Assembly (NCBI RefSeq): GCF_032925565.1
Contig: NZ_CP136708.1
Span: 1,550,001-1,614,000, forward strand
Direction: 5' to 3'
Length of the DNA: 64,000 nt
DNA from: Alteromonas sp. CI.11.F.A3
GTDB lineage: Bacteria; Pseudomonadota; Gammaproteobacteria; Enterobacterales; Alteromonadaceae
The notes beneath the pieces were generated by a model that saw only the letters and a program-made list of their open reading frames with translations, was not told where the DNA came from and searched no databases. Below are positions 1,967 to 53,277 of this stretch, piece after piece (the stretch's first letter is position 1; every line of letters starts with the position of its first letter). A program made the position numbers and the translations under genes.

Positions 1967-2623
1967 TTAGCCTCGCATTTTAGATAGCGTTTCTTTGCGA
2001 AGTTGTAGCTTCGATTCAGCAAACGCTTTCGCAGGCAACATTTTAAGTTTTTCAGCATAGCCCATTGCGGTAGCAAGTACTTGCTCTTGAGGTACTGCTG
2101 CATCCAAATAGCCCACTTTTACTGCTTCCTTCCCTTGATATACACGCGAAAAGAGCAACGCTTCGGTTAAAGAAGTAGGGGCTAAACGTGACTTCGCCAG
2201 TTCCATACCAAACGCAGGTAAAACCATGCCGATAGCGGTTTCTGTTAAACCATATTTAGTGTCACCATCTTTACCTATACGCAAGTCAGCGGCCATCAAG
2301 AATATTGCCCCTAATGCGATACTATGGCCTTCAGCGGCAACAATAAGGGGTTTAGGATAGCTGTAAAGCCTTACAATCAAGTCGGCCCCTGCTTGCACTA
2401 ATTTTACTTGTTCGGTTTTATCTTCAGCTTTCATCACGGAAAGGTCGAAGCCACCGCAAAACTTATCGGCACCGCCATACATCACCACGGCATCTGCTTT
2501 TTGTTCAGCCTCATCTAATGCGTTATTCAACGCATCAATAAGGGCAAAGCCTACTGCGTTTACTTTCCCGTCATCAAAGGTAATAAGTGCTACCTTGTTT
2601 TCAATTTTTAATTCGAAAGCCAT
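1967..2623 (-). CDS. Crotonase / enoyl-CoA hydratase-isomerase family protein
   Basis: This is a 218-residue crotonase-fold enzyme, slightly shorter than the typical 255-290. The two oxyanion-hole regions are visible: GGADKFCGGFDLS near residue 50 and EGHSIALGAIFLMAADLRIG near 95-115. They are followed by the LTETAIGMVLP segment that carries the usual catalytic-region Glu. The substrate cannot be read from sequence; such enzymes act on acyl-CoA thioesters. I chose the ATG at 2623 over the GTG directly before it, because GAGG sits 5 nt upstream of the ATG but would be too close to the GTG. The product begins MAFELKIENK. Confidence 0.8.
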   Translation of the reverse strand: MAFELKIENKVALITFDDGKVNAVGFALIDALNNALDEAEQKADAVVMYGGADKFCGGFDLSVMKAEDKTEQVKLVQAGADLIVRLYSYPKPLIVAAEGHSIALGAIFLMAADLRIGKDGDTKYGLTETAIGMVLPAFGMELAKSRLAPTSLTEALLFSRVYQGKEAVKVGYLDAAVPQEQVLATAMGYAEKLKMLPAKAFAESKLQLRKETLSKMRG

Positions 2624-3007
2624 CACTGCCTCTTTATTGTTAATGCTATTGTGGGGAGTTTGTTTTTAGTGACGCTAAGAAGCAAGTTTTTTTAAATAAT
2701 GAAGGGTATTGGCGTTCGCTTATACACGCAAAAGTCGAAATGCTTAAAGGCCTCCATACCGCCGATTTTCTTAGTCGAATTATTTTTAAAAGTTCGCTAT
2801 CTCAAGCCTTTACGAGGGGGGAATCTATATTAAGTATCCTAATTGATGAGTGTAAGTGATTGTTAGTAATAATAAATGATTATACTTCAGTTGAGTTTAG
2901 GTTTTTTGAATTATTACTTAAGATAAAGTGCATTTAAGCGTTGACTAATCGCCATATTATTTCTATGTTGGTAATTAAAGTGATTAGCCAATGCGCTAGG
3001 CAGCAGT
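2624..3007. other. Intergenic region before the sigma factor gene
   Basis: This AT-rich gap of 384 bp lies between the divergent crotonase and sigma-factor genes. I see no additional gene. The only supported element is a sigma70-like promoter near its right end. Confidence 0.4.
2941..2969 (+). promoter_or_regulatory. Putative sigma70 promoter of the sigma factor/kinase operon
   Basis: TTGACT (2941-2946) matches the -35 consensus at five of six positions. After a 17-nt spacer comes TATGTT (2964-2969) as a -10 element, about 39 bp before the start codon at 3008. Spacing is ideal, but the -10 is imperfect. Confidence 0.45.
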
Positions 3008-3604
3008 ATGGAAGATGTTCATTTGAGGGATACAAGCGGCGAATTTACCGAAGTGTTAAACGCTTGGGTAATTAATAACGATTTAAAAAGTGCCAATCAG
3101 CTTCGTAGTATTGTTTACTATCATTTGAAAGGCATGGTGAAAAAGCAGATCAGCAAAAAAGCGGAGTCTGACAATACGCTAAGCCTGCTCGACAAGCTTC
3201 CTAATACCACCTCACTCCTTCACGATGTCATTATTAAACTGACTGCGCCGGATGAAATTTTTGAAAACAGGCAGCAGTTTTATGCTTCGCTCGCGGTGTT
3301 TGTGCGCTGGATGTTGCAAGATGAAATTAAAAAGCGCTCTGCGAAAAAACGCACTAACGATTTTGATGACGTGGTACAGATAACCGACGCTTCTATTGAC
3401 TCAGGTTTATATCTTAGTTTCGACAATGCGTTATCTTCACTCGAAAATGTATCTAAGCGTTGTTACCAAATAGCGCTTCTTCACTATTATCTAGGGCAAA
3501 ATGTAGGCGAAATAACCTCGCAGCTCAGTTTAAGCGAATCTACGGTTTACAACGAATTGTCGGCGGCGAAAGCCTACCTTCGGGTTCAGTGCGAAGCCGC
3601 TTAG
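3008..3604 (+). CDS. ECF-like sigma-70 family sigma factor, probably kinase-dependent
   Basis: This 198-residue protein has the layout of a minimal sigma factor. Region 2 spans about 28-112, followed by a short linker and a region 4 HTH at 145-195 (...ITSQLSLSESTVYNELSAAKAYLR). It resembles ECF sigma factors that are encoded beside Ser/Thr kinases. In ordinary ECF factors, an acidic Asp-Ala-Glu-Asp-like motif before the 'LVQEVF' helix contacts RNA polymerase. Here the aligned segment is Asn66-Thr67-Thr68-Ser69 followed by LLHDVIIKL. In Vibrio parahaemolyticus EcfP, the same kind of Ser/Thr replacement makes the factor inactive until the kinase PknT phosphorylates it. The kinase gene starts 45 bp downstream, so the same control is inferred here. 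No anti-sigma gene is present. Confidence 0.75.
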   Translation: MEDVHLRDTSGEFTEVLNAWVINNDLKSANQLRSIVYYHLKGMVKKQISKKAESDNTLSLLDKLPNTTSLLHDVIIKLTAPDEIFENRQQFYASLAVFVRWMLQDEIKKRSAKKRTNDFDDVVQITDASIDSGLYLSFDNALSSLENVSKRCYQIALLHYYLGQNVGEITSQLSLSESTVYNELSAAKAYLRVQCEAA

Positions 3605-3649
3605 TTCACCCCGCCATAATGTTGTTCAGTTAAATCAAAAGAGCTATTC

Positions 3650-6600
3650 ATGAAGTTTGAAAATGCTTTACTCTTTTTTCAGCACCTTATTGGGTTGGAT
3701 GAAGCTAAAATGCGCGAAAATTTATCGCAGTTATGTCCAAAAGAAGCCCCAATATTCGCTGAAACCTTGGCATTGATCGATGCCCATTATGCGAATCAAC
3801 AACGAAGTGGCTTCACACAGTTAGTGGGTGCTCAAGCCGATTTACTGTGTGATGATAATCACGCGAAATCCCTAGAAGGTAAACAAGTTGGCCCTTATCT
3901 GCTGAAGCACAAGCTTGGCCAGGGCGGAATGGGAGCGGTGTATTTAGGTCAGCGAAATGATGGGTTAATTGAGCAAAAAGTGGCGATTAAATTCGTTTAC
4001 TCATCGATTGCCGATTTAGCGGGCGATAACTTTATACAAAGAGAAGCACAGCATTTAGCCAATTTAAATCACCCTAACATCGCTAAAATTTATACCATTG
4101 ATGTTACCGAAGAGAACATTCCTTATTTGGTAATGGAATACATTGATGGCGCGCTTTTGTCTGAAGCGCCAATTTCAAATAAACAGAACCTGTCGCACGC
4201 CACGAATGCCTACCTTTCAATTTTAATTAAGCTGTGTAGTGCCCTATTTGAAGCGCATCAAAGCGGTATTATTCACGCTGATATTAAACCGTCGAATATT
4301 ATTGTGGATGAACACAACCAACCAAAGTTACTCGACTTTGGTATTTCTCACTCGTTAAGCCATCCAGATAACCAACAGCTAACTGCAGTTAGTAACGATT
4401 TCGCCAGCCCGCAACAACAAAGCGGCAATCAAGCTAAGGTGACCGATGACATCTATGCGCTAGGTAAAGTGATGGCGTTTATGTTTCAGCACCATACAAC
4501 CAATGCTGAATTTGAGGCGGTCATTCAAAAAGCGACATCCAGTGAACCAAAGGATCGTTTTCAAAGTGCCGAGCAATTTAGCGATGCACTGGAATGCTTA
4601 TTCGCCAATCGGCCACTTAAGTGGTTTAAAAGCAGCAAGCCATATTACTACAAAAAATGGTTTCAACGTTCGCCCGCAACTGCGTTATCAGCCGTAATCA
4701 TCCCTTGTGTACTAGCGTTAGGGGCTGCTGCACTATTTATGCAAAATAAGTCGTTACTACAAGAATCTAAGAAAACACAGCAGACACTTTCTTTTTACGA
4801 CGAGTTATTTTTGGCGCACTCACCACAATCAGAAGGCGGCGGGGCATTAAGTGCCGCTGATTTTATTAACCATGGTGTTGATATCGCGTTTTCGACATCG
4901 CTGAGCGATAGCGAAACCCGTGCATCGATTGTGGCCACCTTATCTCAAACGTTATTGAACTTAGGGTATGTAGAAAAGGCAAAGTACGTTATTGAGCGAC
5001 TGGATGCGCAAGACACGAGTGGTGCATTGATGCAGGCAAAAATAGCCTATTACCGCGGTGATTTGAACAGCGCAACCCACTGGCTTACAAAACATAATAA
5101 CGACTTCCCAAATACCTTTGAAAGCGAATTCCTTAACGCTCAGCTTCATTATGCCGTTACGCAAAGCGCACAAGTATTAGATACTTTAGCGAGTCTTCTA
5201 AACCGATTCGACAAGCAAATGTTGCCGGAAGATAAGTTTAGGCTGCAAAAATTCCAATGGGAAATTTTGCTTAAACACGAGCCTGCTACGTTACTTACCA
5301 GGGTTGAGGAGCCCTTGCCGTCAGATACGCCTACCCACCAAAAAGCATGGTTTGAAGGTATGAAATCATTAGCGTTAGCTAAACACGGCGATATGGATAG
5401 CGCAGCAGCACGAATGAAATCATCACTGGCATTAGGTGAGCAAGCCTACAATGCAACCAATCCAGAGCTCGCACAATTATATGGGTATTTACTGGAAACC
5501 GCGGCGCTAATAGACGACCCACTTGTGGTAGAGTTTTTACTTAGTAAGCAGCAAAGTATTTACCTTGCACTAACGCCCTTGTTTGAAAATCAACTGATAA
5601 AAGTTTATGAGCAGCAACACAACTATTATGCCTACGGCAAAATGTATGCTCAGAGTGTGTCTTTTATAGAATCTGCGGTAGCCTTGTGTGAACAACAAAG
5701 CCATTGTGCTCGGTTAAAGTTAAAACAAGCAATAGCCTTATACCTTGTTAATGATTTCACACGCGCGCTATCGGTTATTAAGGCAGCGGAAATAAAAGCG
5801 CCGAAAAATAGTGACGGCGCGTCCAACGAAAATTTAACGGCGTCTTTCTTTTTTTTCTCCTCGCTGGTGGCATTGAATAGTGAAATAGGTTTGGGATCTG
5901 CGGTGAAGCAAACTGATATTCAAGCATTGGCCGCGAAAGATACCTTGGGTGAGCATACCGCCTATATTATCCATACTGCTTTACGTGCAGGATTTACTGA
6001 TTTCGCGATTGAGTATGGGCTCACACATACTCAAAACGATGATATCGAAAGACACTTAGCTCTGGCTTCGGCGTATGCGGTTAAAGGGGAGAAGCAAAAA
6101 GCAGAGGAAGTGTTAGCAACATCGAGCTCGCTTCCCATCAGCAAAGAGTATGGCGATACGCTTGCCAGTATTTTGCCCCCTGAGGTATTAATCGCACCTG
6201 ATTTTAAGACCCTTCATATGATGGTGTTAGAGGGGCAAAATCGCTTAGTAAGTAATCGAAGAGTTGTAGGGGTAACCGCGCCAACCCACGGGGACAGCCT
6301 TAAAATGGGCACGCCTTTTACTTTTAAGTGGAATAAAGATGCCCTTAAAGGCGAAAGCATTTCTTTGTATATCAATCATAAGCTAAATTTTGAAGCCAAA
6401 GCGTTTGATTCATTTGAAAACATACAAGGCTTGCGCTGGCAGATGTTTGCTAAGCAAGTACCTAACACGGGCGAAGTAGAGATAGATCCTTTCTTTCTTA
6501 TGGCAAATGGCGGGCAGGGCTTTAAGGTAATGATGGTATCCGATCAAGGCTATTGGTCACTGAGCGATGGCTCGTTTGGTGTACTAAATGGCACTGCGAT

Positions 6601-6979
6601 AGATAACGGCATTACCCATACCATCAATCCCCGTTTACTCGTTGATGCTGTCAGTAAACCTGAAGCGTCTGAGGTTTATAATGTGGGCGAGCGTAATACT
6701 ATTGAATGGGACAATGCCGCGTTAAAAGGCGATGCCGTAGGGATATATGTACTTCACGACAACCCTATTAATATTGGCAACGGACGCAATGCGCAGATCA
6801 CTACTGTGATGAAACGACGTTGGTACTTAGTGACAAGTAGGACACCCAACTCGGGAGAGTATGGGCTAGATCCAGCGCAATTTAATGGTCAAGGAAATGC
6901 CTATAAAATACTTATTATAAGTGACTCAGGTTATTGGGCTGTGTCCGATGAGCGATTTACGGTAGTTAATCCGCATTAA
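3650..6979 (+). CDS. Transmembrane Ser/Thr protein kinase with TPR-like region and two C-terminal Ig-like repeats
   Basis: The 1109-residue product starts with a cytoplasmic Hanks-type kinase domain at about 85-335. It has the glycine loop KLGQGGMGAVYLG (about 88-100), the VAIK lysine (about 114), a HADIKPSN catalytic loop (about 208-215, His-Ala-Asp replacing His-Arg-Asp) and DFG (about 228-230). A single membrane span follows at about 343-365. The extracytoplasmic part holds helical repeats with TPR character up to about 850. It ends with two related beta-rich repeats at about 872-985 and 1000-1108, each with a V.AP/KP.....Y/F.xG....xW opening and a GY.W.xSDxxFxVxN ending. The Ala in place of Arg in HRD is typical of kinases that do not need activation-loop phosphorylation. 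It probably phosphorylates the sigma factor encoded just upstream in response to an envelope signal. Confidence 0.8.
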   Translation: MKFENALLFFQHLIGLDEAKMRENLSQLCPKEAPIFAETLALIDAHYANQQRSGFTQLVGAQADLLCDDNHAKSLEGKQVGPYLLKHKLGQGGMGAVYLGQRNDGLIEQKVAIKFVYSSIADLAGDNFIQREAQHLANLNHPNIAKIYTIDVTEENIPYLVMEYIDGALLSEAPISNKQNLSHATNAYLSILIKLCSALFEAHQSGIIHADIKPSNIIVDEHNQPKLLDFGISHSLSHPDNQQLTAVSNDFASPQQQSGNQAKVTDDIYALGKVMAFMFQHHTTNAEFEAVIQKATSSEPKDRFQSAEQFSDALECLFANRPLKWFKSSKPYYYKKWFQRSPATALSAVIIPCVLALGAAALFMQNKSLLQESKKTQQTLSFYDELFLAHSPQSEGGGALSAADFINHGVDIAFSTSLSDSETRASIVATLSQTLLNLGYVEKAKYVIERLDAQDTSGALMQAKIAYYRGDLNSATHWLTKHNNDFPNTFESEFLNAQLHYAVTQSAQVLDTLASLLNRFDKQMLPEDKFRLQKFQWEILLKHEPATLLTRVEEPLPSDTPTHQKAWFEGMKSLALAKHGDMDSAAARMKSSLALGEQAYNATNPELAQLYGYLLETAALIDDPLVVEFLLSKQQSIYLALTPLFENQLIKVYEQQHNYYAYGKMYAQSVSFIESAVALCEQQSHCARLKLKQAIALYLVNDFTRALSVIKAAEIKAPKNSDGASNENLTASFFFFSSLVALNSEIGLGSAVKQTDIQALAAKDTLGEHTAYIIHTALRAGFTDFAIEYGLTHTQNDDIERHLALASAYAVKGEKQKAEEVLATSSSLPISKEYGDTLASILPPEVLIAPDFKTLHMMVLEGQNRLVSNRRVVGVTAPTHGDSLKMGTPFTFKWNKDALKGESISLYINHKLNFEAKAFDSFENIQGLRWQMFAKQVPNTGEVEIDPFFLMANGGQGFKVMMVSDQGYWSLSDGSFGVLNGTAIDNGITHTINPRLLVDAVSKPEASEVYNVGERNTIEWDNAALKGDAVGIYVLHDNPINIGNGRNAQITTVMKRRWYLVTSRTPNSGEYGLDPAQFNGQGNAYKILIISDSGYWAVSDERFTVVNPH

Positions 6980-7072
6980 TAACATCTAAAAACACCTAAG
7001 AATAATCACGTGTTATTAATCTGTGTTATCAGTCTGTGATATTAGGCCGTGCGAAGGCGTAGCGACAACCTA

Positions 7073-7462
7073 TTAACGGCTTGCCGCGAAGGCCTTCGTA
7101 CTATCGGTTTGGGTATAAATTGCGGGACTCACACCTTCGTATTTTTTGAACAAGGTAGAGAAGGTTTTGTGTTCATAGAAGCCTAGCTTATCGGCAATAG
7201 TGGAAGGTCTTTCACCCACTAAAAGTAATTTCCTCGCCTCTGCAATACGCATTGTATCTATACAAGCTTTAGGCGATTTCCCGTAATGCTTCTGGCATAA
7301 TCGCCTAAGGGTCGACACATCCATATTTAGGGCGTTGGCCATATTACTTACCCGTATATCACACATGTCGTGACTCAGCGCTCTTCTATCTATTTCACAG
7401 CTAAGCTGTTGTTCAAATTTCACCATGAACCGTATTTTTCGTTCTGCCTCACTTACCTTCAT
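7073..7462 (-). CDS. AraC-family HTH transcriptional regulator (short)
   Basis: This 129-residue protein consists of little more than an AraC/XylS DNA-binding domain. The first HTH lies near 38-60 (RVSNMANALNMDVSTLRRLCQKHY) and the second near 85-112 (STIADKLGFYEHKTFSTLFKKYEGVSP), the latter close to the family signature. There is no separate ligand-binding domain. It is convergent with the kinase gene and divergent from the PKD lipoprotein gene at 7739, either of which it could regulate. The target is unknown. Confidence 0.8.
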   Translation of the reverse strand: MKVSEAERKIRFMVKFEQQLSCEIDRRALSHDMCDIRVSNMANALNMDVSTLRRLCQKHYGKSPKACIDTMRIAEARKLLLVGERPSTIADKLGFYEHKTFSTLFKKYEGVSPAIYTQTDSTKAFAASR

Positions 7463-7738
7463 TGCCTTTAACCTACTTGAAATTGGCTATGACGGTATTG
7501 TGTTTTTATTCCACTTATCGCGGTAGAAAGAAAATGCGCAGGTATTTTCCAAAATAAAATTTAATTTTTTCGTTTTTACTATTCTTTTTATGTTTTTGGT
7601 TTTGCAGCGCTTTGCGATAGCAATTTTCACCTGTGTGATGAACAAGTTGCGCGATTTAAGGAAGGAAAGGGGCGGGCGATTAGGTTTATGCTTTTTTAGT
7701 TTAATGTTTAACCAATAAAAAGTATAAGGAAGTGTTTC

Positions 7739-10700
7739 ATGTTCATCAGAGCAAATTATAAGAAAAGCATTATTGCTGCATCACTGGTACTAGCCTTGTC
7801 AGGTTGTAACGACGATGATAAAGAAAATGTTATTGTAAATGAAGAAGAGGCGGTTAATGAAGAGGTCGTTAATGTTGTCCCCGTCGCTCAAGCCGGTGAG
7901 GATGCAACCGTTGATGAGAATACGCAGGTTACACTATCCGGTAGTGGTATTGATGATGACGGTACAATTGCATCCTATAGTTGGGTGCAAACCGAAGGCG
8001 TAGCGGTGACGTTAACCAATGCCGACCAAGCTTCTGCTGAATTTACCGCCCCAGATGTGAAACCTTCCGAAACACTTACGTTCGAACTGACTGTTACTGA
8101 TGATGCTGGGGCGACTGCCACAGATAGTGTGTCTGTCACAGTTACTCACATCAACGCATCGCCGACAATTTCAATATCAGCACAAGAAGTAGAAGAGAAA
8201 GAGGCTCACTCTATTGATGCGGTAGCTGAAGACGACGGTGAAATTGCCAGCTATTTGTGGGTTCAAACGGGCGGTACCGAGGTTGAGCTAAGCGGGGCGA
8301 CTACCGCAACGCTTTCCTTTGTTGCACCATCAGTAGAGGGCGATGAAACTTTATCCTTTGCCCTTACCGTAGAAGATGATGAAGGTGAGACGACGACCGA
8401 AACGGTTAACGTAAATGTACTCCAGAAAAACGTAGAATTGACGTTAGTAGGGCTAGTGACTGATTCCCCTATTATTGATGCAAACGTTGTTATTAACGTG
8501 GGTGATGAGCAACAGGAAGTGACAGCCGGTAGTGATGGAAGTTATACCGCCACACTGAGTGTGGATGACGATGCGACTGATAAAATGGTGTCGATTGTAG
8601 CCAGTGGTGTAGGATCGCAAACGCAAGCTAAACTTATGTCAGTGCTGGGGTCGGTTGAAGCACTCAATGAGGCTTCTACTGGTGATGGCGAGGTAACGAA
8701 AGATGATTTTTTCGGCGTGAATGTGACCAACGTTACCACTGCAAACGCCGGTTTAATGCAGCGAGAAAATCTGGGCGCCCCCATCGTTGATGACGAAACA
8801 CTAGCGGCACTGAATCTTCGAGTTTCACAACAAGAGAAATTTGCGCTAGCCACCGCGATTAAGGTGGCAATAGATAAAGCGGGCGATGATGCCAGCCTAG
8901 CCCTTCCTGACGGTATAGTTGATACGCTAGCACTAGCCCAAAATCCCGAAGCTTCCACAGCCTATATTGAAACCATTGAAGATACCGAGGCTTATGCGTC
9001 AGCTTACGAAGAAATTATTGCAGACCCAGAGCTAGTAGATAGTGATTTAGACTCATCGGTTACCACCTACTTTTTGCTTGATTACTACAATCCTTTAATT
9101 AGTTATCCTGGCAAAAAGCTTACGTTAACCAGTGATACGACGGCGACTTATAGCAACTATTTAGGCACGTTTGAAGCTGAACGATTTAGCGATAACAGTG
9201 AGATGACGTTGGAATTTGATGAGGGCGTTTATCGGTTCTCGCAAAGTGAATTTGTCGACGTTAACGGGGTTATTCAGGAAGTTGAAGTAGGATATGATTA
9301 CCATGAAATCACTTTTTTACCGCTAAGTGAGCAAGATGGAGTAGTAACGTTTGAAGTGACGTCGCTTTACTCAAAGTATTACCCCAATGGTGAATTGGAA
9401 GACATTCACAATATTATCGATGATCCTTCGCAAGTTACGGCAATTACCTTAAATAACGCCACAGAAATTACCATTGATAGTGCCGACAATAAGGCGTTAT
9501 CACTACCCGTGACTTCTTCTTTTTTTGAACCTGATAACAATAACTTATTTACCTTCAATTGGTCTTCAGACACGTTTGAATTTAACGAAGACGGGACGGG
9601 TAATACCCGTGTTGTCGATAATGATTTTACATGGGTGAAGCAACCTTACGGGTTAAAACCTGATATCAACGAACTTGTCATTACATTTGATGACGGAACA
9701 ACACTGTCTTATGTGCAGCTAACCGACTCAAGCGACAATAATCTTTATGCGGTTAGCGGAATCTCGTCAGACGGACAACGCGATTCATATAAAGTAGATG
9801 CTGGAGGCGCGATAACCGATGAAGATAAGTTCGACGTGGCATCTGTACCCGGTATCTATACTTACGCCTTTGATGGAGACAGCCTTAATGAATTTTGGTG
9901 GGAGCTTTGGCCGAATGGAAAGGCCTATACCATTGAAGTCGGTGATTACAACGGTGACGGCAAAATTTCAACAGAAGAAATTTTGGTGATGTATGGTAAT
10001 TGGTCAGTGGAAGCGAATGGGGAACTACAAATAAATCGCTACCGCTTTACTGACTATAGTTGGCCTGGTTGTTTCAACGAATCTGCGGATTGTTACTTAT
10101 ACAACAGTCGAACATGGTCGGTATTTGCTCAGGTTGGCGATGCCTATCATATTACAAATCTGCACAAATTTGATTTCAATCAACAAGATGGCAGCAGCGG
10201 ATTCGATGGCATCGTTGATTACTTTACTCAAGATAACCGCCGCGTGTCTAAGCAGGCGAACCGTCCTGTAACCGTAACACTGCCTGAACACCCGCACTTA
10301 CCAGCGCTACCCCCTCAAGCATTTGTGAACTTAGTAGTACCCTCAGATTTCATAGGTACAACAATCTATGGTGTTGAGCAAAACGGGTTGTATACGGTAG
10401 AAGACGCATCAATAGCATTGAGCCTAGAAGCCGACGATACGTATACGCAAACCTTCGAAGGATTACCGCAAGGCCGTGAAAGTGGAAGTTACCTAGTTGC
10501 AGCAGATAACAGTATTCTTCTACAGGCAGAAGATGTTACGGCGCCGAATGCACTTCAAGCATTCTTGCTAGCGTCTGACGGCGTTGCGATTGGCGCTTAT
10601 CTAGGTGCGCCAGTTCCGTTTTTTGAAACTCAGCAAGAGGCTGATGATTATGAAACGGTGTTAAGAGACGGAACTTCAGTTGCTTCGTTTGATTCGTTAA

Positions 10701-11041
10701 AAGATAAGAGTCTAGTGTTGGTAGACGCATCACAAAACGGTGAATGGTCTGCCACTTATTTACAGTTTGATGGCACCAATGTGGTCATCTATACCGACAG
10801 CACTTACTCAGAAGTAGACAATAGTTTCGCCTATGCGTTGAATGATGATGGGAGCATAGATATTGACGGTAGATTGTATCTCTCTTTGAGTACTACTGGA
10901 TTCTCGGTATTCGTTTCTGATGAAGGAGAGGGTGATTATATTGACTTCAACTATCTTTTTGAAGATACGACACTAGCGGCTCAGTTCGTTGAAAATGCGA
11001 ATAATGTGCGTGCGACGGCAGAGCAGTTGGGTGACAACTGA
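7739..11041 (+). CDS. Large PKD/Ig-like repeat lipoprotein with a calcium-loop motif
   Basis: This 1100-residue acidic surface lipoprotein starts at an ATG preceded by AAGGAAG. It has a lipoprotein signal peptide with lipobox LSGC (Cys23), followed by Asp residues. Two PKD/REJ-like Ig modules lie at about 45-137 and 138-230 (each with A..QxxxE...L.G...D.DG.IASY.WVQT and a D..G.T.T..V.VxV ending). A carboxypeptidase-regulatory-like beta module follows at about 235-285. Around residues 735-746 is a DYNGDGKISTEE loop, which fits an EF-hand/dockerin-type calcium site. The rest is beta-rich with repeated short acidic strands and no recognised enzyme domain. The likely location is the outer membrane or cell surface; an adhesin or binding role is inferred. 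It ends at a terminator at 11074. Confidence 0.75.
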   Translation: MFIRANYKKSIIAASLVLALSGCNDDDKENVIVNEEEAVNEEVVNVVPVAQAGEDATVDENTQVTLSGSGIDDDGTIASYSWVQTEGVAVTLTNADQASAEFTAPDVKPSETLTFELTVTDDAGATATDSVSVTVTHINASPTISISAQEVEEKEAHSIDAVAEDDGEIASYLWVQTGGTEVELSGATTATLSFVAPSVEGDETLSFALTVEDDEGETTTETVNVNVLQKNVELTLVGLVTDSPIIDANVVINVGDEQQEVTAGSDGSYTATLSVDDDATDKMVSIVASGVGSQTQAKLMSVLGSVEALNEASTGDGEVTKDDFFGVNVTNVTTANAGLMQRENLGAPIVDDETLAALNLRVSQQEKFALATAIKVAIDKAGDDASLALPDGIVDTLALAQNPEASTAYIETIEDTEAYASAYEEIIADPELVDSDLDSSVTTYFLLDYYNPLISYPGKKLTLTSDTTATYSNYLGTFEAERFSDNSEMTLEFDEGVYRFSQSEFVDVNGVIQEVEVGYDYHEITFLPLSEQDGVVTFEVTSLYSKYYPNGELEDIHNIIDDPSQVTAITLNNATEITIDSADNKALSLPVTSSFFEPDNNNLFTFNWSSDTFEFNEDGTGNTRVVDNDFTWVKQPYGLKPDINELVITFDDGTTLSYVQLTDSSDNNLYAVSGISSDGQRDSYKVDAGGAITDEDKFDVASVPGIYTYAFDGDSLNEFWWELWPNGKAYTIEVGDYNGDGKISTEEILVMYGNWSVEANGELQINRYRFTDYSWPGCFNESADCYLYNSRTWSVFAQVGDAYHITNLHKFDFNQQDGSSGFDGIVDYFTQDNRRVSKQANRPVTVTLPEHPHLPALPPQAFVNLVVPSDFIGTTIYGVEQNGLYTVEDASIALSLEADDTYTQTFEGLPQGRESGSYLVAADNSILLQAEDVTAPNALQAFLLASDGVAIGAYLGAPVPFFETQQEADDYETVLRDGTSVASFDSLKDKSLVLVDASQNGEWSATYLQFDGTNVVIYTDSTYSEVDNSFAYALNDDGSIDIDGRLYLSLSTTGFSVFVSDEGEGDYIDFNYLFEDTTLAAQFVENANNVRATAEQLGDN

Positions 11042-11073
11042 TTGCCTAATTCCTAAATTAACTTTGAATAATT

Positions 11074-11097
11074 AAAAGGGCCTGACGGCCCTTTTTT
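11074..11097 (+). terminator. Rho-independent terminator after the PKD lipoprotein
   Basis: AAAAGGGCC (11074-11082) pairs with GGCCCTTTT (11087-11095) around a TGAC loop, and the T-run continues to 11097. It separates the lipoprotein gene from the small-peptide genes that follow. Confidence 0.85.
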
Positions 11098-11227
11098 ATT
11101 ATTAATGGTTAAATCTGCTCGATAACTAAGCCGAAGATCAGTATTTTACTTTATTAACTGTTAGTAAGCTTTCCTTGCTAGACAACACTAGCGAATTAAT
11201 TGAATACTTAAAAAGGAAAGCAAGCAT

Positions 11228-11521
11228 ATGAAACAACTCACTGAATTAGAATTAAATGAAGTGGCTGGTGGCTACGAATGGGAGCAAATCGGCGTGGGTA
11301 TTGCTATGGTAGGGCTAGGTATTGCTATTGTATCTACCGCTGGATTGGCAACCGTTCCTATTGCCTTGGCGGGCGCAGCAACGATAGGTGAAATTGGGTT
11401 AGGTGCAGCAGGCATAGGCCTAGCTGGTATGGGAGGCTTTGCCGCAGGCGGAGGCATCGGTGGCAGCTCTAGCAGCTCAAGCAGTATGAAAATGCAAGAA
11501 TCTGAAACTGAAGACGAATAG
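11228..11521 (+). CDS. Double-glycine leader peptide, bacteriocin/RiPP-like precursor
   Basis: This 97-residue protein starts with a textbook double-glycine leader, MKQLTELELNEVAGG, matching the LS.xEL..V.GG pattern cut by C39-peptidase ABC exporters. Cleavage after Gly15 would release an 82-residue peptide beginning YEWEQIG. The mature part is Gly/Ala/Ile-rich with two hydrophobic stretches and many GxxxG-like spacings. It ends in a seven-Ser run and an acidic tail. This composition recalls colicin V/class II microcin-type peptides and pore-forming class IIb bacteriocins. A strong AAAAAGGAAAG precedes the ATG. No immunity protein, C39 transporter or modification enzyme is recognisable in the window. 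Confidence 0.65.
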   Translation: MKQLTELELNEVAGGYEWEQIGVGIAMVGLGIAIVSTAGLATVPIALAGAATIGEIGLGAAGIGLAGMGGFAAGGGIGGSSSSSSSMKMQESETEDE

Positions 11522-11529
11522 AGCCAACT

Positions 11530-11829
11530 ATGTATAAAGTCATTGTGAGTGGAAATAATATTGATACCGTATCTGCACTAAAAGTGCTACGTACGCTGGT
11601 TGATTTACCGCTGTCGAAGGTGATTCAAATGGCGAAAGCCATTAGCTCACTTGAGCGCTTTACCTTAGTAAGTGGTGTTGATGAAGCGTATGCTCAGCAA
11701 TTAGCGCTTGAACTCACCAATGTTCAAGTGGATGCCAAAGTCGAGCCTTGTGATACTGACGAGCGGGTAGTAAGGGTTCCGCTGGCGCAGCATCGAAAGA
11801 AATGGCGTTTATTTGGCTTGCTTAAATGA
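11530..11829 (+). CDS. Small protein resembling the ribosomal L7/L12 C-terminal domain
   Basis: This 99-residue protein begins 8 bp after the leader-peptide gene, so the two are co-transcribed. Its first 75 residues follow the L7/L12 C-terminal pattern: a first strand (YKVIVSGNN), helix with VSALKVLRTLVDLPLSKVIQMAK in place of K..VIK.VR..TGLGLKEAK.LV, then a strand and VDEAYAQQLALELTNVQVDAKVE in place of the final AE.....LE.AGA.VE. A basic tail (HRKKWRLFGLLK) follows. It has no signal peptide or membrane span. The similarity is by eye. A function beside a GG-leader peptide is unknown; immunity, chaperone or precursor-binding roles are all open. Confidence 0.55.
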   Translation: MYKVIVSGNNIDTVSALKVLRTLVDLPLSKVIQMAKAISSLERFTLVSGVDEAYAQQLALELTNVQVDAKVEPCDTDERVVRVPLAQHRKKWRLFGLLK

Positions 11830-11889
11830 CTCTCTAACGGTCAGCAATAACACTGACCGTATTCTGCCTACTTGTAGAATTACTCCGCG

Positions 11890-13554
11890 CTAGGAATGAG
11901 TGCTAGAGGGCACTAAAGCCAGTGCTACCGCTTCTGCTACGCGAATGCCATCAATACCTGCAGACCAGATGCCTCCTGCATAGCCTGCCCCTTCGCCTGC
12001 CGGGTACAAACCCTCAATATTCACGCTCTCGTAGTGTTTATCACGTTTGATACATACTGGTGATGAAGTACGGGTTTCAACGCCGGTTAGCATACCATCA
12101 GCCTTAGCAAAGCCTTTGATTTGACGATTAAATGCGGGAATGGCTTCGCGGATAGATTCGATAACAAAATCAGGAACGACTTTACTTAAATCTGTCAGGG
12201 TAATACCTGGTGTATAAGAAGGCTTTACGTCACCCACTTCTTCGCTTGGTTTGCCAGCTAAAAAGTCGCCAATAAGCTGCGCTGGTGCGTGGTAGTTTTC
12301 GCCGCCAACTTTATAAGCCAATTCCTCCAGTTTACGCTGAAGATCTATGCCCGCCAACGGGTGTTCTGGGTAATCTTTTTCAGGGGTAATACCTACCACA
12401 ATAGCGCTGTTGGCATTTCGTTCGTGACGAGAATATTGGCTCATGCCATTGGTGACTACGCGGCCTGGTTCAGATGTTGCAGCCACAACAGTTCCACCTG
12501 GACACATACAAAAGCTGTATACAGTACGGCCATTTCTACAGTGGTGCACAAGTTTGTAATCGGCTGCGCCCAAAATAGGGTTTCCAGCGTTATCGCCAAA
12601 TCGACAGCTGTCGATCATGCTTTGTTCGTGTTCAATTCTAAAACCAATTGAGAAGGGCTTAGCTTCTATGTACACACCTTGGTCATAAAGTGATTGAAAT
12701 GTATCGCGCGCGCTATGGCCTATTGCCATAATCACTTTGGTGCAGGGGAGGTAGCTACCGTCAGATAAGAAAAGCCCTTTAATTTTATGGCTTTTTGAGT
12801 GTTCATCTGCACCAGAGCTGTTTGTATCAGCACCAGGGCTGTCTAAATCCAAACGTTCTACCCTAGTACTGAAGCGAATTTCACCGCCAAGAGAAATGAT
12901 CTGCTCGCGCATTTTCTCTACCATGCTCACCAGTTTAAACGTACCAATATGCGGCTTACTCACATACATGATTTCTTCAGGGGCGCCAGCAGCAACAAAT
13001 TCATTCAGTACCTTACGGCCATAATGCTTGCGATCTTTTACCTGACTATATAGCTTGCCGTCAGAAAAAGTGCCCGCGCCGCCTTCGCCAAATTGTACAT
13101 TCGACTCTGGGTTTAAGGGTTGTTTACGCCAAAAACCAAAGGTGTCTTTGGTGCGTTCCCGAACAGCTTTGCCTCGCTCAAGTACAATGGGTTTAAAACC
13201 CATTTGTGCCAAAATCAGCGCAGCGAATAGACCGCAAGGCCCAAGACCAACCACCACTGGACGGTCTGTAATATCACTCGGTGCAGTGGCAACAAACTTA
13301 TAACGCATGTCAGGGGTTAATCGCACGCTGGTATCTTTGGCGAATTTTTCGAGCAGCGCAGCTTCGTTTTCTACCGCTACATCAAGGGTGTAAATAAGCT
13401 GGATGTCTCTATTGTTACGCGCATCGTAACCTCGTTTAAATACCGTGGTTTCAAGAAGCATCGATTTGGTGATTTGAAGCTTATGTAAAATTGCGTTTTC
13501 TATCGCAACTTCATCGTGATCTAGCGGTAATTTAATATCGGTTAAACGTAACAT
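11890..13554 (-). CDS. NAD(P)/FAD-dependent oxidoreductase, COG2509 type
   Basis: This 554-residue cytoplasmic flavoprotein has an FAD-binding Rossmann motif at about 98-130 (VVVGLGPCGLFAALILAQMG...ER), a QFGEGGAGTFSDGKL segment near 155-170, and a C-terminal FAD-closing motif GLYPAGEGAGYAGGI...AGIDGIRVAEAV. The order and spacing match the uncharacterised FAD-dependent dehydrogenases of COG2509, related to BaiN/HI0933 flavoproteins. The N-terminal 90 residues form the extra domain usual for that group. The substrate is unknown. The gene is monocistronic and convergent with the small-peptide operon. Confidence 0.8.
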   Translation of the reverse strand: MLRLTDIKLPLDHDEVAIENAILHKLQITKSMLLETTVFKRGYDARNNRDIQLIYTLDVAVENEAALLEKFAKDTSVRLTPDMRYKFVATAPSDITDRPVVVGLGPCGLFAALILAQMGFKPIVLERGKAVRERTKDTFGFWRKQPLNPESNVQFGEGGAGTFSDGKLYSQVKDRKHYGRKVLNEFVAAGAPEEIMYVSKPHIGTFKLVSMVEKMREQIISLGGEIRFSTRVERLDLDSPGADTNSSGADEHSKSHKIKGLFLSDGSYLPCTKVIMAIGHSARDTFQSLYDQGVYIEAKPFSIGFRIEHEQSMIDSCRFGDNAGNPILGAADYKLVHHCRNGRTVYSFCMCPGGTVVAATSEPGRVVTNGMSQYSRHERNANSAIVVGITPEKDYPEHPLAGIDLQRKLEELAYKVGGENYHAPAQLIGDFLAGKPSEEVGDVKPSYTPGITLTDLSKVVPDFVIESIREAIPAFNRQIKGFAKADGMLTGVETRTSSPVCIKRDKHYESVNIEGLYPAGEGAGYAGGIWSAGIDGIRVAEAVALALVPSSTHS

Positions 13555-51953: not shown

Positions 51954-53277
51954 GTCTCGATTTGGCGCAGAGTCACAAGAGTCCACCGCCCCTTTCGGTT
52001 TTTTTCTTTTGTGTGTTTACACTGCGCTTGTTCTGATAAGGCCACATGAATGGCCTATCCTCAGCCTTCAATTTCCAGTGCTAAGAATATTCCTTATCGC
52101 AACGTTTTTTGCCTATTTAGTTTCATTGCGGCCAAAGGTATGGAATGCGCAATGCACGATAATGATATTGTTATTGTTTTCCATGCTTTTATCAGAAGTA
52201 AGGGCATTGAGGTTCTTTAGCGATTTAACGTTTGTTATCGATTGGATAAATACAAATACAATTCCTTTCATTTTATTTTTAGGGTTTCTGGTTTCATTTG
52301 GCAGACAGAAAATTATTCTATTAATCTCTTTATTAGCATGCATAGTGATGACACAGCATGCATATGTACAGGTTAATAATCCCTTCGGAGAAGGGTGGGC
52401 TGAAACAGTTATTTATCGCAATGATGGGGCTAATCAAATGGCACAGGCGCGGTATATCGGAATTTTTAATGACCCCAATGACATGGGAATGTTTTTAGTC
52501 ATGAATATTCCTATCGCGGTTTTCTTTTTGGTTTCGGCAAAAGGCTGGCTAATGAAAGGTGTCTATTTACTGACAACTATCTTTCTTGTTTTCGGCATTT
52601 ATTGGACTGGGAGTCGAGGATCCCTATTGGGGCTTCTGGCGGTGTTATTCGCGTTTTTCTATTTACGTTTCGGCAAAATTAAGTCAATTTTGTTGGCTGG
52701 AATTTCCCTTCCGGTCATTTTGGTGGCAATGGGTTCATTTCGTACTATTAGCAAAGATGATGAAAGCTCGATGCAGCGACTAACAGCGTGGTATGAAGGT
52801 ATTCAAATGCTATTACATCGCCCACTTTTTGGATTTGGAAAGGAGCGCTTTCTGGAATACCACTCTAAATTAGCCCACAACTCATTTGTTACCGTTATGT
52901 CTGAATTAGGAATTATCGGGTACACACTCTGGATGTCGTTTGTATTGCTAATCTTTTTAATGCTATTACGTATTATAAAACTGAAAAGCGACCCAGTTTC
53001 ATCCGATATCTCGATAAAACAAGAAGTCACGCTCGCTGTTTTTATATTAGTTTCGATAATAGGCTATTGTAGTACGGCCTTTTTCATTAGCCGTAGCTAC
53101 ATTATGTTTTTCTACATATTTGCGGCAATGGCAGCTGCGTCTTTTATAAGAGTATCTAAGGCAAAGCCTGAGTTGCAATTGGAAATAACGGGCAAAGACT
53201 TGCTGAAAGTAGGGCTTCTTAGCTTGGTAAGCTTGGTACTACTCTACATCATAATAATCACGCTACTTCGAATATAG
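51940..53277 (+). CDS. O-antigen ligase / Wzy-like polymerase
   Basis: This protein of about 445 residues has about 11 membrane spans. A Wzy_C-type loop contains the conserved GSRGSLLGLL and, after a long periplasmic loop, GFGKERFLEYHSKLAHNSFVTVMSELGIIGY. It polymerises or ligates undecaprenyl-linked repeat units outside the inner membrane; in this Wzx/Wzy-type cluster it is the only polymerase candidate. The ATG at 51940 is preferred over the upstream GTG/TTG codons, as AAGG lies 9 nt before it. It overlaps the acyltransferase gene by 14 bp. Confidence 0.85.
   Translation: MTRSKSRFGAESQESTAPFGFFLLCVYTALVLIRPHEWPILSLQFPVLRIFLIATFFAYLVSLRPKVWNAQCTIMILLLFSMLLSEVRALRFFSDLTFVIDWINTNTIPFILFLGFLVSFGRQKIILLISLLACIVMTQHAYVQVNNPFGEGWAETVIYRNDGANQMAQARYIGIFNDPNDMGMFLVMNIPIAVFFLVSAKGWLMKGVYLLTTIFLVFGIYWTGSRGSLLGLLAVLFAFFYLRFGKIKSILLAGISLPVILVAMGSFRTISKDDESSMQRLTAWYEGIQMLLHRPLFGFGKERFLEYHSKLAHNSFVTVMSELGIIGYTLWMSFVLLIFLMLLRIIKLKSDPVSSDISIKQEVTLAVFILVSIIGYCSTAFFISRSYIMFFYIFAAMAAASFIRVSKAKPELQLEITGKDLLKVGLLSLVSLVLLYIIIITLLRI

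Follow-up and report, generated by a model that had tools for sequence, protein, structure and literature searches.

We analysed a 64,000-nucleotide stretch (the window; contig NZ_CP136708.1, positions 1,550,001 to 1,614,000) of the 4.66-Mb single-contig genome of Alteromonas sp. CI.11.F.A3, in which a gene for an extracytoplasmic function (ECF) sigma factor is followed on the same strand, after an intergenic gap of 45 bp, by a gene for a transmembrane Ser/Thr kinase. Judged from sequence, the pair represents a new lineage within the known ECF43 type, and by homology its sigma factor is very probably activated by phosphorylation. On balance, the pair appears to belong to a whole envelope-signalling module composed of the kinase, the sigma factor, an AraC-type activator and lipoproteins. 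The genes, the Asn-Thr-Thr-Ser (NTTS) motif of the sigma factor, two DNA elements (motifs 1 and 2), their positions and their co-occurrence across genomes are read directly from the DNA. The main features are:

3008..3604, + strand: ECF43-type sigma factor of 198 amino acids, in which N66-T67-T68-S69 replaces the acidic σ2.2 motif (assigned by PF07638, alignments and tree)
3650..6979, + strand: transmembrane Hanks-type Ser/Thr kinase of 1109 amino acids, with the kinase domain at about 83–300
7073..7462, − strand: small AraC-type protein of 129 amino acids with HTH_18 only, a conserved partner in the module
7523..7554, − strand: motif 2, TTTTGGAAAA-N10-TTTTCTTTCTAC, facing the AraC-type gene with ECF-like −35/−10 geometry; candidate sigma target
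7648..7689, + strand: motif 1, TGCGCGATTTAAGGAAGG-N18-GTTTAT, 49 bp before the lipoprotein start; predicted AraC-type site overlapping a −35, plus a −10
7739..11041, + strand: predicted lipoprotein of 1100 amino acids with lipobox LSGC (by eye and pattern) and two K319L-like PKD domains

Sigma factor and kinase

Translation of the open reading frame (ORF) confirmed the initial annotation's claim that residues 66–69 of the sigma factor are N-T-T-S, directly before LLHDVIIKL, instead of an acidic motif. In an alignment of relatives, NTTS was invariant in 62 of 62 rows and none had an acidic residue at 66–69. The matching stretch of six other ECF-like proteins in the same genome contains one acid or more in every case (DVAD, DASD, EVDD, LAME, DADD and MAAD; by eye). 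BLASTP aligned T67-T68 of the window sigma factor on T62-T63 of a Vibrio parahaemolyticus sigma factor, P0200 (motif S61-T62-T63-A64), which by its name, length and motif seems to be EcfP itself. A misaligned motif with acids kept nearby, the outcome that would have undone the earlier claim, was ruled out given the acid-free rows and the placement of T68 on T63. The protein matched PF07638 at 46.9 bits (cut-off 21.1) and TIGR02999 at 98.2 bits, under the cut-off of 126.15, the one shortfall among its ECF43 features.

The literature consulted documents direct phosphorylation that activates a sigma factor in two systems, EcfP and EcfK (PMC8999054, PMC13147305). PknT phosphorylates the second Thr of the STTA motif of EcfP, making up for the missing acidic charge (PMC8999054). 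The ECF43 motif consensus is QTTA, with the Thr conserved in 88%; the equivalent site of EcfK, T51, is phosphorylated, a T51A variant alone is still functional and T106 in the linker matters too (PMC13147305). T68 of the window sigma factor is thus aligned with the phosphorylated Thr and is its likely phosphosite. In the linker, T116 falls in a Ser/Thr column (42 of 62 rows) and is a possible second phosphosite, and position 123 is Ser/Thr in 50 of 62 rows, with Val in the window protein.

The membrane Ser/Thr kinase with intact Lys and DFG noted earlier was recovered in full (PF00069, 115.5 bits): it has a P-loop GQGGMGAV at 90, VAIK at 111–114 (Lys114), HADIKPSN at 209 and DFG at 229, and its strongest 19-residue hydrophobic stretch is 346–364. 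To this we add that the catalytic loop reads HAD, not the usual HRD, which makes it a non-RD kinase. The RD feature (Arg before the catalytic Asp) is common, and not required, in Hanks-type kinases. Among the 120 listed of 1719 kinases found, the Arg was missing in all 50 nearest relatives (P0065–P0114) and present in 63 of the next 70. The best Protein Data Bank match of the kinase domain was 9EED (106.3 bits), a narrow lead over Mycobacterium tuberculosis PknB (105.8 bits); 9EED was deposited as PknS, the kinase of EcfK (PMC13147305). The C-terminal part contains two Kre9/KNH-like immunoglobulin (Ig) repeats that match each other (31% identity, E 6e-21), and there are stretches like tetratricopeptide repeats (TPRs) below the cut-off. 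The periplasmic part is variable: a search of six relatives found clear TPRs there in some and no named domain in others. In one locus with an STTS-type sigma gene (L129, G035, 6194–10621) two tandem kinase genes follow, and in Paraglaciecola arctica (L025, 10592–13896) the kinase is split over two overlapping frames, one of them holding the C-terminal Ig part.

Across 67 distinct ECF43-like loci, hand-picked from those fetched (68 entries, L033 and L112 being one and the same locus), the third motif residue was Thr in 64 and Ser, Gly and Ala in one each. A kinase gene lay within 2.5 kb in 55 of the 67, on the opposite strand in 3 of these 55; the kinase-less loci include five of Vibrio type covered with a 1.5-kb flank only. 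We defined a sigma factor of this clade by a score of at least 280 bits against alignment A1. All nine loci of this clade in that set have a kinase gene downstream on the same strand, and such a sigma factor occurs in 8 of 395 family genomes. In a tree of 50 sigma sequences, the clade and the Vibrio type fell into a single group of 30 rows (100/100) that excludes three canonical ECFs, with long branches that leave the placement uncertain. As far as sequence allows, we assign the pair to the ECF43 type because of the NTTS conservation, the alignment on T63, the kinase adjacency, the tree and the 9EED match, and the EcfP/PknT likeness proposed initially is likewise supported by the T63 alignment, the tree group and the kinase match. 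No anti-sigma gene was seen, in agreement with the initial annotation; the family-library search covered the six proteins at 3008–11829 and the upstream neighbours were just read. In one genome (L122, G1029, 8983–10019), a truncated sigma gene (97 amino acids) adjoins a truncated kinase gene (137 amino acids); the two seem to decay together, and this genome has neither a listed AraC-type match nor motif 1.

AraC-type gene and lipoprotein

In the window and in eight of nine other clade neighbourhoods, the gene for the AraC-type protein (PF12833, HTH_18, 67.2 bits; cut-off 33.6) lies downstream of the kinase gene on the opposite strand. In the ninth (G1019, a 7.7-kb contig), the kinase gene instead converges with the lipoprotein gene. 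The protein was found at 184–202 bits in 7 of the 395 family genomes, all with a sigma factor of this clade, and at 127.6 bits in G1111, whose NTTC sigma factor belongs to the sister clade; the remaining matches, in five genomes, scored 76–85 bits (E up to 1e-20), the general level of the AraC family (ten best candidates scored per genome). G1019 alone among the eight genomes with a clade sigma factor had no listed AraC-type match. Absence in G1019, G1014 and G789 means that no match was listed, the 395 genomes being assumed to be the same draw as in the sigma survey.

The lipoprotein encoded at 7739..11041 scored below the cut-off of Pfam LPAM_1; it is the likely output gene of the module. 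A similar lipoprotein follows in seven of nine neighbourhoods. In five of them (L106, L024, L118, L107 and L026) the similarity is full-length, and in L025 and L027 it is confined to 82 and 94 residues; L028 has a different lipoprotein at that spot and none was seen in L108. The sigma locus of G001 has no lipoprotein that we could see and a degenerate motif 1. Elsewhere in that genome (L190, about 12300–12840), a second AraC-type gene is accompanied by both motifs and a lipoprotein gene.

Motif 1 and its distribution

Alignment of the intergenic regions between AraC-type and lipoprotein genes revealed a conserved block, motif 1. A 22-base search in five genomes gave 12 sites, and the ten examined comprised four at this locus, three upstream of unlinked lipoprotein genes and three elsewhere. 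The distance to a −10-like GWTT was 18 bp in each of the first 11 sites. With the pattern CGAWYNRRGGAAGG-N18-GWTTA, we found 13 sites in 8 of 10 sigma-bearing genomes and none with the reversed control. Among 59 genus genomes, the same pattern had exact sites in six, all with the sigma factor, and one 1-mismatch site in each of two genomes that lack it. The refined pattern TGYKCGAnnnRRGGAAGG-N18-GWTTWW gave 15 exact, one 1-mismatch and 11 two-mismatch sites in 63 genomes. The 16 sites with 0–1 mismatch occur in 10 of 11 sigma-bearing genomes and in none of the 52 others, which include three (G035, G030 and G012) with more distant ECF43-like sigma factors (motifs STTS, NTTS and DTTD).

All 16 good sites face a predicted lipoprotein start (lipobox by pattern and eye) at 33–138 bp; two of them, L162 and L184, are also overlapped by a frame open from stop to stop over at least 120 codons. 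By comparison, the two-mismatch sites lie in genomes without the sigma factor (10 of 11) and inside ORFs of at least 120 codons (11 of 11), none faces a lipoprotein gene, and the reversed refined pattern reached the same level (11 hits). Four sites turned up only once the pattern in use at the time was fixed, G1102:1632675 and G903:C5 with the CGAWYNRRGGAAGG pattern and G001:1366257 and G029:3629645 with the refined one, and all face lipoprotein genes; the first is an ortholog of a site already used for the pattern. In a set of 44 genomes, mostly with other ECF43-like sigma factors, motif 1 was limited to G000, G1111 and one 1-mismatch site in G399, within an ORF of the opposite strand. The G1111 site, the 17th, faces a lipoprotein gene with ankyrin-like repeats (by eye), back to back with the AraC-type gene. 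Five of seven lipoproteins searched have PKD, leucine-rich-repeat or beta-propeller domains, and two had no Pfam match. Information content was computed with close copies collapsed (11 of 17 sites kept); five of the seven positions of the TGYKCGA box were as informative as GGAAGG, the pattern itself having required them.

Motif 1 occurs in about seven distinct lineages: the close Alteromonas group, G029, G001, Paraglaciecola arctica, Thalassotalea marina, Colwellia polaris and G1111. With good confidence, we regard it as a working control site of lipoprotein genes. We interpret it as an AraC-type site plus a −10 because it tracks the AraC-type gene more closely than the sigma gene; from its position and distribution, it is somewhat probable that the AraC-type protein reads it.

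Motif 2 and the upstream region of the sigma gene

Motif 2 can also be written TTTTGGAAAA-N10-TTTTCT, followed by a CTA-like step. ECF promoters have a GGAA, then 19 bases, then a CTA-like step, and motif 2 agrees with this geometry. In a leave-one-out analysis of eight loci, the motif was matched by 0, 7, 0, 0, 0, 0, 0 and 1 of 500 shuffles. Among the loci scanned, scores of at least 28 were confined to the regions preceding AraC-type genes and, in the case of G1019, the lipoprotein gene; most of these loci built the model, and L106, L118 and L190 did not. The next scores were 20.7 at window position 52668 and 17.2 upstream of the AraC-type gene of G1111, and nothing exceeded 16 in sister and more distant loci (L109–L113 and L119–L133). 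Position and distribution make motif 2 a candidate for recognition by this sigma factor, at a probability that we put just short of even.

The initial annotation suggested looking for a promoter of the regulon upstream of both the sigma gene and the lipoprotein gene; one was found before the latter, as motif 1, and none at 3008. We rejected autoregulation of the sigma gene, as the regions upstream of six sigma genes contain no match to motif 1 even with 7 mismatches allowed, and the upstream scores of motif 2 were reached by 158, 239, 187, 53, 29 and 233 of 300 shuffles at six loci (a seventh region, from Colwellia, was too short for the shuffle test). A scan of 2600–11900 for σ70 promoters gave 13 matches, against 19.5 expected from shuffles; one lies upstream of the sigma gene:

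2941..2969, + strand: σ70-like promoter TTGACT-N17-TATGTT, weak

Preferred reading and alternative explanations

The simplest account would make motif 2 the promoter of the sigma factor and motif 1 an AraC-type site with a −10, because motif 1 is missing in G1019, G1014 and G789 while G1019 keeps motif 2 before its lipoprotein gene; the second AraC-type, motif 1, motif 2 and lipoprotein set of G001 is a parallel. Several points weigh against this account. Many sigma-bearing genomes are closely related and do not count as independent cases. The 18-bp spacing came from the first 11 sites and was then imposed on all later ones, and of the ten sites examined in the 22-base search, seven face lipoprotein genes and three (L136, L140 and L142) do not. 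The genomes without motif 1, namely G1019 (NTTS), G1014 (NTTC) and G789 (HTTS), have a clade or sister sigma factor and no listed AraC-type match; motif 1 thus fits the AraC-type gene better than the sigma gene, and its tie to the latter may be indirect. The cores of motif 2 were chosen by eye, the element is also an inverted repeat (GAAAA-N10-TTTTC) and it may be a site for another factor. A motif 2-like site at 52668–52700 (+ strand; 20.7, versus 28–33 at true loci) has no known link to the module, and neither motif is present in the upstream region of the sigma gene itself.

Our first reading was that motif 1 is simply the promoter of the sigma factor, with GGAAGG as the −35, GWTTWW as the −10, TGYKCGA as an extended part and the AraC-type protein doing something else. 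GGAA is the usual −35 core of ECF promoters, the sites are confined to sigma-bearing genomes (10 of 11, against 0 of 52), and the 18 bp from GGAAGG to the G of the −10 held in the first 11 sites before being required. However, the TGYKCGA box carries more information than an ECF −35 needs, and the absence of sites from G1019, G1014 and G789, where the sigma factor is present and an AraC-type match unlisted, weakened this reading, which we now hold to be unlikely. To the same degree, we doubt that the lipoprotein genes are a regulon of the AraC-type protein and ordinary σ70 that merely neighbours a sigma/kinase pair whose true targets lie elsewhere. Motif 1 does track the AraC-type gene, and in G001 and G1111 this gene, motif 1 and a lipoprotein gene stand together away from the NTTS/NTTC sigma gene. 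Yet both genomes still hold a sigma factor of this or the sister clade, the pair has the AraC-type gene beside it in 8 of 9 other neighbourhoods as well as in the window, and among the 395 genomes only G1111 has an AraC-type protein of at least 120 bits without a clade sigma factor (ten best candidates per genome).

The phosphorylation switch has a rival of its own, in which the sigma factor is constitutive or otherwise controlled (by linker phosphorylation as in EcfK, or by expression level) and T68 is no switch. The functional EcfK T51A variant and the role of T106 (PMC13147305) are compatible with such control, as is the Ser/Thr column at linker position 123 (50 of 62 rows), although the window protein has Val there. 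Given that none of the 62 rows has an acid in the motif, that NTTS is invariant and that the kinase gene is adjacent, we consider this quite improbable and favour phosphorylation at T68.

Proposed mechanism and comparison with known systems

By homology with EcfP and EcfK, the kinase would sense a cue with its periplasmic part and phosphorylate the sigma factor at T68; the phosphate would supply the negative charge missing from σ2.2, and the sigma factor could then bind core RNA polymerase. The active sigma factor would start transcription of the AraC-type gene at motif 2, and the product of that gene, bound at motif 1 and acting with this sigma factor or another holoenzyme, would turn on a small set of lipoprotein genes. 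In full, this amounts to a four-step relay—from a non-RD kinase to an ECF sigma factor, to a dedicated AraC-type activator, to dispersed surface lipoproteins—in which an activator-less lineage would place the sigma promoter directly before the lipoprotein gene. The relay's lipoproteins would carry PKD, leucine-rich-repeat, beta-propeller and other domains, and the activator would act at a fixed composite site. We propose the complete relay tentatively, as a reading that falls somewhat below an even chance.

The Vibrio pair EcfP/PknT, which controls polymyxin resistance (PMC8999054), likewise has an ECF sigma factor without the acidic motif, TT at the site and a kinase gene close by. It differs in sequence (25% identity over 188 positions between P0200 and the window sigma factor; STTA there, NTTS here) and in gene order: the window kinase gene directly follows the sigma gene, whereas the Vibrio-type loci L132 and L133 read kinase, a 478-amino-acid gene, sigma. 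Lipoprotein-looking genes lie near these two loci, and the lipoprotein output may be older than this clade. EcfK/PknS of Xanthomonas citri, whose targets are type VI secretion system genes (PMC13147305), also combines a sigma factor with a transmembrane kinase, and about 80 residues precede the kinase domain in both systems. Unlike NTTS, the EcfK motif QATE retains one acid, and EcfK has linker phosphosites; PknS has an H-R-D loop and three periplasmic TPRs, compared with the HAD loop of the window kinase. The AraC-type protein resembles MarA/SoxS-type single-domain regulators in its size (about 130 amino acids) and HTH_18-only architecture; it differs from these in being tied to a module and to a predicted 18-bp site, TGYKCGAnnnRRGGAAGG.

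Beyond the lipoprotein gene lie two small ORFs. The first (11228–11521) encodes a 97-amino-acid protein with a GG leader-like start (ELNEVAGG) and a glycine-rich body, microcin V-like at 14.3 bits, below the cut-off; the second (11530–11829) encodes a 99-amino-acid protein without a Pfam match, whose sequence looks, by eye, like the C-terminal domain of ribosomal protein L7/L12. Both were rejected as module members, being present only in L023, L024, L106 and L118.

The titles and abstracts that we searched describe neither the module nor an ECF43 promoter, which is weak evidence as subscription papers were outside reach. The type of switch is known from Vibrio and Xanthomonas, and what looks new is a small partner regulator and a DNA signal before surface-lipoprotein genes. 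This lineage, found in marine bacteria, adds an exact predicted control site, predicted target genes and a dedicated regulatory partner, and genomes with and without that partner offer a natural comparison. If true, the module would show how a kinase–sigma pair is wired to surface lipoproteins.

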